Assembly: GCA_002869145.1 (NCBI GenBank)
Contig: PKTM01000027.1
Coordinates: 1 to 60,332 of the forward strand
From: Denitrovibrio sp.
Lineage (GTDB): Bacteria > Chrysiogenota > Deferribacteres > Deferribacterales > Geovibrionaceae
DNA length: 60,332 nt
Direction of reading: 5' to 3'
How positions within the stretch are numbered: the stretch's first letter is position 1; every line of letters starts with the position of its first letter. This document shows positions 3,675 through 50,773 of the stretch, one piece after another. The translations under genes and the position numbers were made by a program. The notes under the pieces were generated by a model that saw only the letters and a program-made list of their open reading frames with translations, did not search any database and was not told where the DNA came from.

Positions 3675-5036
3675 TTATCTAAAGTTGAATACTCTGTAAA
3701 TCCCTTCTCTCTCTTCTGCTTTCAAGTCGTTTGTCTTGGTTCTGCTTCTGCTCAGGCATGTACCATTTTCCAGATAGTTGATAGCATTTTGAAGCATTCT
3801 TTCGTTTGGATCGCCAAGTTGGTGTTCAAGGTCATCGGTGTCATCACAGTCCACTGGAACACCACTATAATATTCGCCGTATCCTGCGGAGTTGTATGTT
3901 TGGAATGATATTGGAACCAGATAGTTTGAGCAAAAAGGAAAAGAGTACATTCCTGCTGGTTTGCCGTATGTGTCTGAACCAATCAAGTAAGTGGAGATAT
4001 AGGGTTGAAGTCCGGTTATTAGCAGTTCACTGGATGAAGCAGTTTTATCTGAGACAAGAAACACTACTTTGTCTACTGCAAGGTCATAAGATGGAGCAGT
4101 TAAAGCTACCGCTCTGTTCCATGAGCTGTATCTGGTATTGTGTATGTAATAATATAATATCTCATATGCTAATGAAGAGCCGGCCACAGCACTGGCAATA
4201 TATCTGGCGGCGGATGTCTGACCTCCACCGTTATATCGCAGGTCTATAACCAGTTCTTTTACTCCGTTATCTCTGAATGCTGTAAAGGCTGCACTCAGGT
4301 CTGAGGTGTAGTTGCTGTTAAAGTGCAAATAAAGCAGATATCCGATTTTTTCACCGTTACTATTATTAGTGAATATATCGTAGGCAGGCACGGAGTCAGC
4401 TGTATATGTGTCTTTAGTTAGACTTACTGTCCCTGTATTGTTATTGTTGTCAATATAGGTTAGCCCTACATTATAGCCCAATTCGTTTGGCCCGAATGCA
4501 TCATCCCAACTGCTGTTTTGTATTATGTCGGTCGCAGAATACCCGTTAATGTTGGTTAGTTCATAGCCTCTTTCTAAAGATGCATTATCCGCAGGTGAGC
4601 CAGGGTAAACAAATGTAAGGAAGATTTCATTGTTAAGAGCAGAATATGCGTATTTGAAACCCATTCCGATATTATCCCCGCTGTAGTAAGCGTTGTAGTC
4701 CGCCTGAGAAATGACGTAACTCCATTTATCTGCAGAATACTTAAGGGCGTTTAAAAGCTCAGTATTTGAAGAATAACTGGTAGGTGAAAGTGATGGTGTA
4801 TTACTGCTCCAAAGATAAACATCATGCATTGCAGTATAAATAAATTCTCTCTGAGCAGTTTCTGTGCATTCGCTGGTGTCTGGGGTGTATGCAAGAAAAC
4901 CTATAGGACCTACATCTGCAGAATCATCTGTACTTGCTGCATTTCCGCCGCCTCCACCGCCGCCGCAGGAAACTGTTAAAAGTAATATTATTGCAATTGT
5001 GAAAAGTTTGATTTGTGAGAATTTATTTGTTTTCAT
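3675..5036 (-). CDS. S41-family peptidase lipoprotein
   Basis: The N-terminus is a lipoprotein signal with lipobox LTVSC followed by a run of seven glycines, which probably tethers the enzyme to the outer membrane. A PDZ-like stretch (GSPADNASLERGYEL) precedes the tail-specific protease core. In that core, LVIDLRYNGGGQT and TASSSELLITG (nucleophile Ser) and TYGKP (catalytic Lys) match the C-terminal-processing peptidase dyad. I chose the MKTNKF start; an in-frame ATG 18 bases upstream is possible and neither has a good ribosome site. The substrate is unknown, and it is distinct from the CtpA-type enzyme at 17750-19000. Confidence 0.85.
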   Translation of the reverse strand: MKTNKFSQIKLFTIAIILLLTVSCGGGGGGGNAASTDDSADVGPIGFLAYTPDTSECTETAQREFIYTAMHDVYLWSSNTPSLSPTSYSSNTELLNALKYSADKWSYVISQADYNAYYSGDNIGMGFKYAYSALNNEIFLTFVYPGSPADNASLERGYELTNINGYSATDIIQNSSWDDAFGPNELGYNVGLTYIDNNNNTGTVSLTKDTYTADSVPAYDIFTNNSNGEKIGYLLYLHFNSNYTSDLSAAFTAFRDNGVKELVIDLRYNGGGQTSAARYIASAVAGSSLAYEILYYYIHNTRYSSWNRAVALTAPSYDLAVDKVVFLVSDKTASSSELLITGLQPYISTYLIGSDTYGKPAGMYSFPFCSNYLVPISFQTYNSAGYGEYYSGVPVDCDDTDDLEHQLGDPNERMLQNAINYLENGTCLSRSRTKTNDLKAEEREGIYRVFNFR

Positions 5037-6156: not shown

Positions 6157-6690
6157 ATGAAGCTTCTGCTAATAGATAATAATGACAGTTTTACATATAA
6201 CCTTTACCACCTCATAATCCGCAACACGGGTTTTGACACCTGTGTGCTTCCATACGATAAACTTCCTATGTGTGACAACTTAGAATATGACGCTTTTGTT
6301 ATATCTCCAGGACCAGGTCATCCATCGGAATACATCTATTATTCTGAAATATTTAACACCGGCAAGCCTGTTTTTGGTGTTTGCCTGGGGATGCAGATAA
6401 TTAATTTGCATTTTGCAGGTGAGGTTACACGACTTGAGGGCTGCAGGCATGGCGTTACTCTTCCCGCAGAGTACAACAAAGAGTTTATAGATGTAGCGGT
6501 TTATAATTCGCTTTACTGCTCTTTGGTTCCTGATGTTTTTGAAATAATTTCTAAAAGTGTTAATGTACCTATGTGGATAAAACACAAGGAGCAACCCATT
6601 GCAGGCGTTCAGTTTCACCCAGAATCTTTCCTTACAAAAAATGGCGGCAGGATATTAACAGATGCATTCAGCAGTATTGGAATCATTTGA
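6157..6690 (+). CDS. pabA: aminodeoxychorismate synthase glutaminase component
   Basis: This is a class I glutamine amidotransferase of the PabA/TrpG family (177 residues, slightly short). It has the opening LLIDNNDSFTYNL, the oxyanion region SPGPGHP, the nucleophile elbow GVCLGMQ and the catalytic HPE in GVQFHPESF. It supplies ammonia to PabB for 4-amino-4-deoxychorismate in folate synthesis. The role is assigned to pabA rather than trpG from the pabB and pabC genes that follow with overlaps. The stop is a TGA inside the start of pabB, showing TGA works as a terminator here. Confidence 0.88.
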   Translation: MKLLLIDNNDSFTYNLYHLIIRNTGFDTCVLPYDKLPMCDNLEYDAFVISPGPGHPSEYIYYSEIFNTGKPVFGVCLGMQIINLHFAGEVTRLEGCRHGVTLPAEYNKEFIDVAVYNSLYCSLVPDVFEIISKSVNVPMWIKHKEQPIAGVQFHPESFLTKNGGRILTDAFSSIGII

Positions 6691-7903
6691 AAAAAAGGAC
6701 TTTCTGAATTTTGTCAGGGCAGTTTCAGGGATATGGGAAACAGATGCTCTCTTCTCTGGCGCAGGCTACACTGGGGAAAATGTCTCTGTCTGCTATATCT
6801 TGCCAATAAGCAGTTATGCTGTGACAGGCAGGGAGAGTGTTAGCGGACTGAGAAGATTTATTAACTCGGATGATAAAGAAACTTACGGTTTTTTAGCTTA
6901 TGATTTAGGTCTGTCTCTGAAAGATGTGCACACAGACAAAAAGCTAATGACTGACCCCGGGCTTTTTAAAAAATACGCTGCATATGCAAGACACTGTGGG
7001 CAAAGGCTTACTATAGAGTCGGATTGTCCTGTCATTCTGGAAAAAGCACTTATAGCTTACGAAACATACAGCCCAACGCCACCAAACATGTCAGCAGCAG
7101 ATGTTAAATGCAACATGACTCGTCAGGATTATGTTGGAAAGGTAAAAGAAGTCATTGAGTACATCCGTGATGGTCATACATATCAGCTTAATCTCTCCAT
7201 GATGTTTGAGGCAGAAACTTATGAAAAACCATATGACATCTGGGCGCATACAGCAGAAATGAATCCCGCTCCTTTTTATGCACTATTTAAATTTAACGAG
7301 GGTCACATATTATCGACCTCACCCGAAAGGTTCATAAAAGTTTCTGACAGAAAGGTGCTTTCTCAACCGATAAAAGGTACGCTGCGCTTTAAAGAATATT
7401 ATCCTGAGCTGGAACAAAAGCTTACAGAATCTGTTAAAGAGAGCGCTGAGCTTTCTATGATCGTTGATCTCATCAGAAACGACATCTCCGAGACCTGTGA
7501 GGTTGGCAGTGTAGAGGTTTTGGAACATAAATCTGTGATGTGTGTTGATGATCTGCTTCAGATGTACAGCAGTGTTTGTGGTACTCTTAAAGACGGTAAA
7601 GATGTTCTTGACCTGCTTTTTTCAGCCTTCCCCGGAGGGTCTGTTACAGGCTGCCCGAAAAAGCGATCAATGGAGCTTATAGATTCACTGGAGCCGCACT
7701 CAAGAGGTGTTTACTGTTGAAGTATAGTGAGGGTGCTGGACATGGACAACATGGACTCATCTGTTGCTATAAGAACCGGAGTACTCAAAAACAACACATT
7801 CAGTTTTTACGCTGGAAGCGGAATAGTTGCTGATTCTGTACCGGAAAACGAATATGAAGAATCCGTCAGCAAGGCGGACAAATTTTTAAGGTTGTTCAGA
7901 TGA
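6662..7903 (+). pseudogene. pabB: aminodeoxychorismate synthase component I, interrupted by an in-frame TGA
   Basis: This chorismate-binding enzyme has the PIKGT motif, where Lys is diagnostic for aminodeoxychorismate rather than anthranilate synthase, plus MIVDLIRNDIS and FPGGSVTGCPK. An in-frame TGA at 7718-7720 falls directly after RGVYC, where the family has RGVYCGSIG. After it the same frame runs 60 more codons with the conserved AIRTG, AGSGIVADS and EYEE elements. That frame ends at 7903 in an ATGA overlap with pabC, so the original gene spans 413 codons plus stop. The simplest change is GGA (Gly353) to TGA. It overlaps pabA by 29 bases. True decay, sequence error or readthrough cannot be told apart here. 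Confidence 0.85.
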
Positions 7904-37478: not shown

Positions 37479-37819
37479 GAAAGAAGGCCATTCGGTCGCC
37501 GGTGCGAAAGCACGGGAGGAAAGTCCGGACACCGCAGGGCAGGGTGACTGATAACATCAGCCTGGTGCGAACCAGGGAAAGTGCCACAGAAAACAGACCG
37601 CCCGAAAGGGTAAGGGTGAAACGGTGGTGTAAGAGACCCCCGCTGACGCTGGCAACAGCGCAGGCATGGCAAACCCCATCCGGTGCAATGCCAAATAGGC
37701 AGGTTTACTAAAGCGGCCCGCTTTTTATAACCTGCGGGTAGGCAGCTCGAGCTGCGGAGCAATCCGCCGCCTAGATAAATGACCGATTAAAACAGAATCC
37801 GGCTTAACGGCCTTCTTTC
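37479..37819 (+). ncRNA. rnpB: RNase P RNA (bacterial class A)
   Basis: The P1 helix is formed by GAAAGAAGGCC (37479-37489) and GGCCTTCTTTC (37809-37819). The universal core is present: GGAGGAAAGTCCGGAC near 37515, ACAGAAAACAGACCGCC near 37585, GGTAAGGGTGAAACGG, and AGACCCCCG in the middle. The 3' half has GAATCCGGCTTA before P1 closes. The RNA removes 5' leaders from tRNA precursors. A TATGAT box at 37464 is a possible -10, and TTTTCTATCTT follows the 3' end. Confidence 0.96.
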
Positions 37820-37940
37820 TTTTCTATCTTGAAATACATAAAGTCTGAAATGTATTAAAATTATAAAATTATTTGATTATGTCATATATGTATTAATAGC
37901 AATTGACTATGGGATGAAAAAAAGTTATATTTCTTGAAAA

Positions 37941-45066: not shown

Positions 45067-45201
45067 ATTAAGCAACCCCGAATAAATGTGATTTACAAAG
45101 ATAATATACTAAATTATACTACATGTCACTTTCAAAAAACAATAAAAACAGAATATTATTATAAATTGTTTTTAACATATATAAACATTTAAAGGGTTTA
45201 C

Positions 45202-45672
45202 ATGGTAATTTTAGAAGAATTTAAAAAACTTTGCGATTTTTACAGAAAGAGATATAAAAATCAGTCCGCTTTCAGGTCTTTAAAGATGGTTAAAAACGCT
45301 AACGGCGAAAAAGAACCCGTTTTTTATATAGGTGTACCCTGAATGATGGTTGCCCTTGCATTTTCATTTGTTCTTATTGCAACTATATACGTTCTTTCAC
45401 TCCCTTTTATGTGGTATGTTTGGCTGCCTTATATCATATTTCTGATTTTTCTGTTCCGCATAGCTATGAAATATGACAAAGCCAGACAAATAAGGTATAT
45501 GGTTTTTTACCTGTTGGAGTCAGGGCGGAAAATGCTTATGAAAGCAGAGGAAAGCGATTATCCGCAAGAAGAGCAGGAGTGTATTGCAAAGGCAGAATAG
45601 TTGCTTGAAAAAGCCAATACATGGGTGGATGAGCCTGCTCTTAAAGCACAGCTTGAAGCTCTGCGCAAATAG
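45202..45672 (+). pseudogene. small membrane protein, interrupted by in-frame TGA and TAG
   Basis: AAAGGG precedes an ATG at 45202 that opens a frame of 46 codons (ending YIGVP) before a TGA at 45340-45342. The frame continues with 85 codons containing two membrane helices (VALAFSFVLIATIYVLSL and MWYVWLPYIIFLIFLF) to a TAG at 45598-45600. It then runs 23 more codons (LLEKANTWVDEPALKAQLEALRK) to a TAG at 45670-45672. One uninterrupted 156-codon product with a membrane hairpin and a charged helical tail is the natural reading. AKAE-E-LLEKA, with GAG to TAG, would restore a smooth amphipathic helix. I do not recognise the family. Confidence 0.6.
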
Positions 45673-45751
45673 TACAGTATTTGTCTTAATCAATATTGAA
45701 AACAATACAACCGTTATGTTACTTTAAGCTTAGATTAATGTAGGTATTTTT

Positions 45752-47310: not shown

Positions 47311-47804
47311 TAAAGCATTTCCTGAACAGCTTCGTTATCTTTATAAACTTTCTCTTTCATAGTGTCACGGTAGGTTATAAGCTTTTCGTAAATTGCTTTG
47401 TCGCTTCTTCCTATTATCTGTGCAGCAAAGATTCCGGCGTTTTTGGCTCCGGCTTTACCTATAGCCATAGTGGCAACGGGGATACCGCCGGGCATCTGTA
47501 CCATAGCATAAAGTGCGTCTATGCCGTTCATGCTTGTAGCGGATATCGGTACAGCGATAACAGGCACATTAGTTTCGCTTGCGATAACTCCTGCAAGGTG
47601 TGCAGCAGCTCCGGCGAGTGCAATAATTGCTACAAGACCGCGCTCATGGGCAGTTTTTGACCATTCGCCTGTTCTCTCAGGTGTTCTGTGTGCAGATGAC
47701 ACTATAACCTCATACTCAATCCCGAATTCCTTTAAAACGTCAATGGCAGACTGTGCAATGTCAAAGTCAGACTTGCTGCCCATAATGATTCCTACTTTGT
47801 TCAT
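47310..47804 (-). CDS. purE: N5-carboxyaminoimidazole ribonucleotide mutase
   Basis: This class I PurE of 164 residues opens IIMGSKSDFDIAQSA and has the conserved VSSAHRTPERT and IALAGAAAHLAGVIASET motifs. It converts N5-CAIR to CAIR in purine synthesis. It overlaps purD by 4 bases (ATGA) and tsaC by 1 base. The gene is intact, unlike its upstream neighbours purD and purH. Confidence 0.96.
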   Translation of the reverse strand: MNKVGIIMGSKSDFDIAQSAIDVLKEFGIEYEVIVSSAHRTPERTGEWSKTAHERGLVAIIALAGAAAHLAGVIASETNVPVIAVPISATSMNGIDALYAMVQMPGGIPVATMAIGKAGAKNAGIFAAQIIGRSDKAIYEKLITYRDTMKEKVYKDNEAVQEML

Positions 47805-49087
47805 TTTTTCAACCTCTTAAGTGCTTTTGCGCCAATATCATTACGATAGTGGACATCTTTCCACTCTATTTTTTTAACCGCTTCATAAGCGAGTTTTATT
47901 GTGTCAGCAAGTCCTTCACCACAGGCAGTAACGCCGAGCACACGACCGCCGGTATTCACAGTTTTACCGTCTACTGTTTCTGTCCCTGCGTGGAAAACTT
48001 TAACACCTTACAGTTTATCAGCTTCTGCTATACCTTTTATTTCATATCCTTTTTTGTAAGATTTCGGATATCCGCCGGATGCCATCACAACACACACAGT
48101 GGGGTTTTCGTTCCATTCTATCTCAACCTTATCCAATGTCTGGTCTACACATGCGAAAAAAACAGGCACTATGTCAGATTTCAGTCTGGACAAAACAGGC
48201 TGTGTCTCAGGGTCGCCGAAACGAGCGTTGAACTCAAGCACCTTTGTACCGTTTTTTGTAACCATGAGCCCTGCGTATATAATCCCTTTGAAAGTGATCC
48301 CTTTGTCAGCCATTGCTTTGATAAGCGGGTAGGCTATCTTCTCTGTGGCAAAATCGAACAGCTCGTCTGTTACAACAGGGGCAGGGGAGTAAGCTCCCAT
48401 TCCGCCTGTGTTCGGGCCTTTGTCATCGTCGTAAACAGGTTTATGGTCTTGGGATGAAACCATAGGCAGAACTGTTATGCCGTCTGTGAATGCAAGGTAT
48501 GATGCTTCCTCGCCATCGAGAAATTCTTCGACAACAACTTTACTTCCCGCCTCGCCGAATGCGTTATCAACAAAAATCTCTTCAAGTGCGCCAATAGCTT
48601 CTTCGACAGTTCTGGCAACTGTAACACCTTTACCAGCGGCTAATCCGTCCGCCTTAACAACAATAGGTGCGCCCTGCTTATTAACATAGTCCTTAGCAGA
48701 TTCTAGGTCAGTAAATTCTCCGTAAGCAGCAGTAGGAATTCCTGCATCTATCATAATCTCTTTAGCGAAGGCTTTGCTGGCCTCAAGCTGTGCAGCATCC
48801 GCATTAGGTCCGAAAGCTCTTAAACCCTCGGCTGTGAAAGCATCGACAACGCCCATAGCAAGCGGATCTTCCGGCCCAACAACAGTAAGGTCAATCTTTT
48901 CTCGCTTAGCAAATTCCAATAATCTATCAATATCTGTGGCCTTAATGTCCACGTTGACTGTTTTATCTTCGAGGTCTGTGCCGCCGTTACCAGGTGCGGC
49001 ATATATTTTCGCTACCAGAGGTGACTGTGCAATTTTCCAGCAAAGTGCGTGTTCACGTCCTCAGCCTCCGACTACAAGTATTTTCAT
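47801..49087 (-). pseudogene. purD: phosphoribosylamine-glycine ligase, interrupted by in-frame TGA and TAA
   Basis: The frame starts MKILVVGG at 49087 and meets a TGA at codon 9 (49061-49063), followed by GREHALCWKIAQSP; the family reads GGGGREHAL, so a Gly codon is replaced. It continues with the ATP-grasp core (VVVKADGLAAGKGV, EASYLAFTDG, NTGGMGAYSP, FKGIIYAGLM, FNARFGDPETQ) to a TAA at 48008-48010. After that, GVKVFHAGTETVDGK and a normal C-terminus run to 47801, making an ATGA overlap with purE. Full length is 428 codons, normal for PurD. Both stops are explained by G-to-T changes (GGA, GAA). As written the gene could not make PurD. Confidence 0.88.
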
Positions 49088-49108
49088 AATCTATATCCTC
49101 CATACAAT

Positions 49109-49218
49109 GGCTTACATGGATGTAAGCCCAATTTGCAGTTCATCTGCAAATTGAGAGAGAGGGCAAAAGCTTCTTTTGCCCGATCGTATGCAAAAGTTTC
49201 ACGGATGATAACTTTTGC
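49109..49218. other. array of four consecutive hairpins between purH and purD
   Basis: Four perfect stems lie end to end in the 141-base gap. They are GGCTTACAT/ATGTAAGCC (49109-49128), CAATTTGCAG/CTGCAAATTG (49129-49153), GGGCAAAAG/CTTTTGCCC (49161-49181) and GCAAAAGTT/AACTTTTGC (49190-49218). Each arm is 9-10 bases without mismatch. The third and fourth share the GCAAAAG word. Read in the operon direction the last hairpin ends about 21 bases before the purD start. They may set the purH/purD mRNA ratio or be a repeat-type structured element. Confidence 0.75.
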
Positions 49219-49228
49219 AAAAATTTTA

Positions 49229-50773
49229 TCAGTGTTTGAAGTGTCTCACACCGGTGAAGACCATAGCTATTCCGTGCTCGTTTGCAGCGGTGATAACTTC
49301 CTCATCTCTAATGGAGCCTCCCGGTGATATTATAGCTGTGATTCCTCTTTCAGCCGCCTCGTCTATGCTGTCTCTGAAAGGGAAAAAAGCGTCAGATGCC
49401 ATAACGGTTCCTTTCAGCTCTGATTTCGCCTTTGAAGCAGCTATCTTTGATGAATCCACACGGCTCATCTGACCTGCACCCACGCCTATTGTTCTGTCTT
49501 GGGTACAGTAAACTATGGCGTTTGACTTAACATGCTTAGCAACAACCCAAGCGAAATCCATAGCCTTGTATTCAGTATCAGTAGGTTTTCTGTCCGTAGG
49601 AACTTTGAGTGCTCTGATATCTTCTATTTCATGAAGGTCTCTGTCCTGAAGGAGTATCCCTCCAGTCACATTTTTAACATCCAGTTCGTTGTCACGTCCG
49701 CCTGTAATATCGCCAAGCTCTATAAGGCGCAGATTTTTCTTAGCCTCAAGGATTGCAATAGCCTCTTTCGAAAACGATGGAGCAAGAACTACTTCGAGGA
49801 AAATATTTGCAAGCTTGTCAGCCAGAGCAGCATCAACCTCACGGTTCACACCCACAATACCTCCGAAAGCTGAAACAGGATCGCACTCCAGCGCTTTATC
49901 GTATGCTTCCACAACAGAATCGCCAATTGCGCAACCGCAAGGGTTTGTATGTTTTATGATAGCCACCGCAGGATGCTTGAACTCTTTTATAAGCTCAAGT
50001 GTGGCGTGGATATCTACTATGTTGTTAAATGAAAGTTCTTTACCCTGAAGCTGTTTGCCTGTTGAAACGGAAGCTTCTTTCACCAGAGGCTGAACATAGA
50101 ACGCTGAATCCTGATGTGGGTTTTCGCCGTATCTCATCATCTGCTTCTTGCGTGCAGGGATGGCTATCTCCTCAGGAAATTTAACGCCGAGTTTCTGGTT
50201 GAAGTAGTTAGCGATAATAGAATCGTAAACACCTGTGTGGGAGTAAGCTTTTCTTGCCAGATCTATACGGGTATCAAGTTCTGTTCCGCCATTATCCATC
50301 TCAGAAAGTACCCTGCTGAAATCATCATTATCAACAATAACAGTTACGAACTTGTGGTTTTTCGCTGCTGAGCGGATCATGGAAGGACCGCCTATATCAA
50401 TGTTTTACACAACTTCATCATGCTCTGCGCCTTTTGCAACAGTAGCTTCGAAAGGGTAGAGGTTTACAACAACCATGTCGATATCTTCGAGATCGTGCTC
50501 TTTCATGGTTGTCTGATGTTTTTCGTTATCGCGGATGTTCAAGATGCCGCCATGTACTTTCGGGTGGAGAGTTTTCACTCTGCCGTCAAGCATTTCAGGA
50601 AATCCTGTGAACTCAGAGATCTCTACAATCTCAACACCGCTTTCTGCGAGAAGTTTTGCTGTTCCGCCGGTGGAGATTATCTTTACGCCGTGTTTTTTCA
50701 GACCCTTTGCAAATTCAACGATACCGCTCTTATCAGAAACACTGATCAAAGCAGCTTTAGGCATTACTTTCAT
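49229..50773 (-). pseudogene. purH: bifunctional AICAR transformylase/IMP cyclohydrolase, interrupted by an in-frame TAA
   Basis: The N-terminal IMP cyclohydrolase part ([49 protein letters not shown]) runs to a TAA at 50405-50407. The same frame resumes NIDIGGPSMIRSAAKNHK, which the family has as ENIDIGGP. So a conserved Glu codon is replaced (GAA to TAA). The transformylase domain (RYGENPHQDSAFY, KHTNPCGCAIG, SDAFFPFRDSID, SPGGSIRDEEVI) is complete. Full length is 514 codons, normal for PurH. GAGGA precedes the ATG, which overlaps lspA by 17 bases. Confidence 0.88.

Follow-up and report, generated by a model that had tools for sequence, protein, structure and literature searches.

REP and BIME sequences are short, dispersed hairpin units, often arrayed, that favor convergent or tandem gaps and are seldom found in divergent gaps, and REP units have a conserved stem sequence with a GTAG-type foot. 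The sponge RNAs CsrB/CsrC and RsmX/Y/Z carry several hairpins with GGA loops and are encoded by one or two genes, and the RsmE consensus is A/UCANGGANGU/A. For CsrA itself, PMC7652899 gives a SELEX consensus, RUACARGGAUGU, in which the GGA is usually found within a six-base loop closed by AC-GU pairing, states that most selected ligands have four or fewer contiguous pairs, gives the CsrB repeats as CAGGA(U/A/C)G, and describes two CsrA sites in the B. subtilis hag leader, one of them over the Shine-Dalgarno sequence. In PMC3791407, RsmN bound an AAGGAU hexaloop, a five-base GGA loop was about twofold weaker, and binding to a four-base GGA loop was weak.

The hairpin array between purH and purD analyzed here is like REP/BIME in consisting of short hairpin units that recur in arrays, and like the sponge RNAs in its GGA-loop hairpins, two at this locus and more in other arrays. 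It is unlike the sponge RNAs in being a dispersed repeat with longer stems and no Rfam match, in having no terminator-like site in the purH-purD gap, and in residing in genomes that carry fliW. The array is almost certainly one copy of a dispersed repeat. With a probability of about 0.5, we read this repeat as a mobile, REP-like element whose RNA would be able to bind CsrA; we infer both the binding and the mobility.

The hairpin array in the purH-purD gap

Within the window, by which we mean the whole 60,332-nt stretch of DNA analyzed, purH (49229-50773) and purD (47801-49087) both lie on the minus strand, with the end of purH at 49229 and the start of purD at 49087. The 141-nt gap between them (49088-49228) is mostly filled by the element. 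The original prediction had placed four mismatch-free stems of 9-10 bp here, between purH and purD, and both the location and the stems are as described, except that the last stem reaches 49219, one base past 49218. On the plus strand, hairpin A (49109-49128) has a perfect stem of 9 bp and a loop of 2, with the tip CATGGATG at 49115-49122 and GGA at 49118-49120. Two middle hairpins without GGA follow, the first (49129-49153) with 10 perfect base pairs and a loop of 5, and the second, of the form GGGC...GCCC (49161-49181), with 9 perfect base pairs and a loop of 3. Hairpin B (49189-49219) has 10 perfect base pairs and a loop of 11, the tip CACGGATG at 49200-49207 with GGA at 49203-49205, and a one-base 3′ bulge at 49209. 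This four-hairpin array at 49109-49219 is beyond chance: nine such perfect hairpins occur in the window, four of them inside the array, whereas in ten simulated windows from a first-order Markov model the count was 1 to 7 per 60 kb, with at most one in any stretch of 110 nt. As RNA, the 119-nt hairpin block folds at -51 kcal/mol on the plus strand and -49 kcal/mol on the minus strand (z scores of -7.7 and -8.6).

In one of its options, the original prediction had the expression of purH and purD kept apart by an RNA-processing or ribosome-shielding element. A cis-acting RNA element working locally, through processing, stabilization or shielding, to uncouple purD from purH would be in keeping with the strong stems predicted for the mRNA strand, which end upstream of the purD Shine-Dalgarno sequence, itself located between hairpin A and purD. 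We consider such an element very unlikely, because the repeat is genome-wide, in-frame stops break both purH and purD in this assembly, and comparison of the gap among relatives, which the original prediction had proposed as a check, found no conservation. Neither same-genus genome carries the array in its orthologous gap. The source genome (2.88 Mb) shares its genus with G001, where the gap is 26 nt; in G002 the gap is 96 nt of unrelated sequence. In five g4 genomes the gap is 69-267 nt with other repeats, in G004 it is 307 nt with two A-type hairpins, in G003 and G005 an A-type hairpin lies downstream of purH, and in G006 purH and purD are nearly contiguous by coordinates. The A-type hairpin in the gap of G003, G004 and G005 has the opposite orientation, with its GGA strand being the operon sense strand, whereas in the source genome the GGA strand is antisense to the purH-purD operon; since it is antisense, local pur control is not indicated. 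We read the gap as a permissive place that probably tolerates inserts, and not as a conserved regulatory site.

The hairpins had also been described as something other than ordinary terminators, and indeed a scan of the purH-purD gap found no terminator-like sites. We rejected a terminator or attenuator of purD on this ground and because the array is not kept at the orthologous gap. An Rfam riboswitch or small RNA identity was likewise rejected, since there were no relevant Rfam matches across the window and 8 loci carrying element copies. For the purH-purD copy only, two weak promoter-like sites were found in 48900-49500, compared with 0.7 expected.

Both genes are otherwise intact; their interruptions in this assembly are an in-frame TAA in purH (50405-50407; GAA in 9/9 relatives) and, in purD, a TGA at 49061-49063, where relatives have Gly, and a TAA at 48008-48010, where relatives mostly have Glu. 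A pabB-like gene, otherwise intact, has an in-frame TGA at 7718-7720. By reading, all three genes belong to purine or folate synthesis, and each stop could come from a single G-to-T change at the first codon base. The stops may reflect true loss of the genes or errors in the assembly. We rejected a G>T mutator as their source: among 125 changes specific to the source genome at sites constant in relatives, 45 were C>T and 5 were G>T. Elsewhere in the window, a reading frame at 45199-45675 has relatives in at least five genomes and contains three in-frame stops, with no Pfam matches when read through them. An AAA_26/DRTGG protein at 36267-36995 matches the AAA_26 profile at positions 118-198 only, and its N-terminal part therefore seems to be missing or interrupted. 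An RNase P RNA of class A lies at 37480-37822.

Copies of the element and their constant loops

The stem word GCAAAAG, singled out in the original prediction, is truly common to two of the hairpins, but a genome search for GCAAAAG-N2-20-CTTTTGC found only three places, two of them in this array, and the word was rejected as a dispersed unit; the conserved part is the loop tips. A 29-nt match on contig 14 sits, by our reading, in a long open frame and was taken as chance. The other option offered, a dispersed repeat cluster, has been borne out, with the architecture and loops recurring at many loci in 11 of the 12 family genomes. A survey of perfect-hairpin clusters in 458 kb of the source genome and 320 kb of relatives identified one locus in G006 with the identical four-hairpin order and other stems, and this comparison gave a common tip, CANGGATG, for hairpins A and B. 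The element runs from a 5′ hairpin A through one or more middle hairpins to hairpin B at the 3′ end, in which a single base bulges out on the 3′ side. The tips of A and B are CANGGANG or CAGGANG, exposed on one strand, and between copies the stems vary and covary while the GGA tip is constant. A close homologue of the purH-purD copy, on contig 10 of G002 (locus L165), has a mean column identity of 84%. There, the stems of hairpin A and of the first middle hairpin differ yet remain paired, the latter being fully re-paired, and the second middle hairpin, which sits at the same place in the G002 and G006 homologues, has one mismatch.

To follow the element across genomes we used R1, a covariance model of hairpin B built from 8 hairpins; its pair counts are circular because these were found as hairpins around CANGGATG. 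At E<=0.1, R1 matched in 11/12 family genomes, with 6 matches in the source genome, 0 in G001, 1 in G002, 42 in G003, 21 in G004, 9 in G007, 7 in G008, 4 in G009, 1 in G010 and 6 in G011, and with at least 81 in G005 and at least 120 in G006, two counts that may be low as 150 candidates were scored per genome. Across the phylum, 12/50 genomes matched at E<=0.01, namely the 11 family members and 1/38 others (E 0.0087). As far as tested, then, the element is confined to the family that includes Denitrovibrio acetiphilus. With E<=1, seven matches are obtained in the source genome, and one of these lies, by our reading of the genes, between pta and ackA. By eye, a further degenerate copy is seen in its guaB-guaA gap (L116, 18548-18638), and the guaB-guaA gap of G007 also has the element (L180, around 1501-1531), by reading in the opposite orientation. 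In G006, the copy-richest genome, one copy (G006:C1 1683873-1684362) shares the strand of csrA and lies about 300 nt downstream of it. A literature search of titles and abstract starts found no description of such a repeat.

To avoid circularity in assessing the loops, we picked hairpins in G003-G005 by flanking words and ignored the loop. At 42 loci, mostly chosen around R1 matches, GGA was present in 99/102 B loops (72/75 distinct arm-loop forms) and in 59/77 A loops, TCC never occurred, and the 102 B hairpins comprised 57 distinct arms. The tip consensus of these hairpins was C A N G G A N G, that is CANGGANG; a second class, CAGGANG, does without the first N. Most B loops had one additional 3′-side base of free identity, the bulge. 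The same procedure on 400 kb of contiguous G005 sequence, not chosen by hairpins, found GGA in 26/27 B loops (12/13 distinct B forms) and 23/34 A loops, with TCC in none, and four control words gave no hairpins at 189 sites.

Replication template switching keeps palindromes paired while their sequence drifts. An old, neutral remnant kept palindromic in this way, with no protein reading its tips, would thus have covarying stems without selection. It would leave unexplained why 12 of the 13 distinct B forms in the unselected 400 kb share the constant GGA, as well as a bulge that is kept near the tip while its base identity is free, and we regard it as improbable.

Probable insertion and genomic context

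At loci chosen around R1 matches, direct duplications flank 18/141 clusters compared with 13/705 control placements, and about half of the 18 were judged by eye to be other dispersed repeats or parts of the element. Clear examples measure 57 nt at L109 in the source genome (copy at 4224-4484), 44 nt at L165 in G002 (1447-1694), 17 nt at L174 in G009 (1474-1691), 40 and 40 nt in G003, and 28 and 31 nt in G005; duplication-flanked copies at L230, L232 and L251 lie at about 6301-6492, 6334-6619 and 2278-2475, respectively. Some duplications are exact. In 6/18, what is duplicated is the 3′ end of the neighboring gene, and the block finishes within 3 nt of the stop codon (offsets of 0, 0, +1, -1, +1 and -3, with a seventh at +4); among the long duplications at L109, L165, L174, L230, L232 and L251, most terminate at that codon. 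At L230 and L251 the duplicated codons differ only synonymously by our reading, at L165 the block is a gene start, and at L109 the orthologous gene in G002 has a single copy of the duplicated end and no element there. A MITE of a DDE transposon was rejected, as the duplications range from 17 to 57 nt and do not have a fixed short length.

The placed clusters favor convergent gaps (62/140, compared with 170/1104 background gaps) over divergent ones (16/140, compared with 210/1104), in counts made with simple ORF rules at loci chosen around R1 matches, where some ORFs in GC-rich arrays are spurious. Counted in the same way, the GGA strand in tandem gaps is sense in 37 cases, antisense in 22 and mixed in 3, with sense against antisense being 3 to 10 in G006 and 31 to 10 in G003-G005. 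In counts of the same kind, GGA is kept in antisense copies (B 19/20, A 15/16) as in sense copies (B 37/38, A 29/41), which argues against a role through the neighboring mRNA and for a constraint on the element itself, as RNA or as DNA.

With its dispersed, intergenic, palindromic units in many copies, found in 11/12 family genomes, the element is REP-like, and it is probably mobile. It differs from REP/BIME in that its stems are free, differing between copies, while its loop is constant, and the conserved stem of REP/RAYT systems is lacking. The Y1 transposase PF01797 occurs once each in the source genome, G001, G002 and G007 and is absent from the copy-rich G003-G006, and a RAYT-driven REP was therefore rejected.

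The main rival of CsrA binding is a role of the constant tip at the DNA level. The element would be a selfish DNA repeat whose tips and bulge are read on single-stranded DNA by some mobility protein, and its likeness to CsrA sites would be a coincidence. The retention of GGA whatever the direction of the neighbors, the constant one-base bulge in B, the flank duplications, a copy number of 0 to at least 120 between relatives, and the excess in convergent gaps and deficit in divergent ones, a pattern shared with other intergenic repeats, all fit this account. However, no Y1 transposase is present where copies are richest, the variable loop positions coincide with those of CsrA ligands, down to the optional base that precedes GGA, and the loops equal the hairpin of the family's flagellin leaders. 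We consider this explanation possible, and less probable than CsrA binding.

CsrA as a candidate reader of the tips

Both csrA and fliW are present in 12/12 family genomes, and the source-genome CsrA keeps L4 and R44, counted on the protein. Both loop classes of the element fit CsrA-type ligands as described in PMC7652899 and PMC3791407. At the motif level, CATGGATG and CACGGATG each present an ANGGAN or AGGAN loop closed by C-G. The family's own flagellin leaders have the same tip: a CA(N)GGANG hairpin with a stem of 4 bp or more is found in 25/28 of them compared with 7/387 other leaders, and A(N)GGA lies close to the Shine-Dalgarno sequence in 28/28, the flagellin set being 30 loci among the 58 matches listed, two without a readable start, with orthologues that are not independent. 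From this difference, the CANGGANG hairpins are very probably CsrA sites of the family. At the flagellin loci (L274-L303), the CANGGANG hairpin and the A(N)GGA at the Shine-Dalgarno sequence make up a two-site CsrA leader layout. Each leader hairpin is a short, solitary structure tied to one gene, whereas the element is multi-hairpin and dispersed.

The constant tip would most likely mean that CsrA binds the element RNA, with odds close to even. Several observations count against it. The element stems are 7-12 bp, whereas the SELEX ligands mostly have at most four contiguous pairs, and a four-base GGA loop was bound weakly in PMC3791407. The constant bulge of B is no known CsrA requirement, and G001 has csrA and fliW yet no element copy. 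In addition, GGA retention in antisense copies does not suit a role through the neighboring mRNA, and the orientation in tandem gaps differs between genomes.

Under the CsrA reading, the element would be mobile and non-autonomous and would have inserted into the purH-purD gap of the source lineage. Where its GGA strand is transcribed, the tips would be bound by CsrA, and the copies together might serve as dispersed CsrA decoys or as a CsrA handle on the RNA that carries them. At purH-purD itself, the element would give the pur mRNA stable stems alone, with no site for CsrA, and purH and purD would be affected incidentally if at all.

Taken further, and tentatively because we think it doubtful, a mobile repeat whose sole constant part is a CsrA recognition hairpin could place a dispersed RNA decoy load on CsrA, inserting at gene ends and duplicating the last or first codons so that the genes stay intact. 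If true, this load would range among relatives from no copies to more than 100. In bacteria that have FliW, CsrA is thought to be controlled through the FliW protein. PMC4682653 states that further work is needed on whether such bacteria have RNA antagonists of CsrA as well, and the many CsrA-type hairpins of this family, with their natural variation in copy number, would allow a direct test of RNA antagonism in FliW-bearing bacteria. The element would be a repeat in which the protein-binding loop, and not the stems, is the constant part, and it would illustrate how a mobile element could spread a regulator's binding site through a genome.
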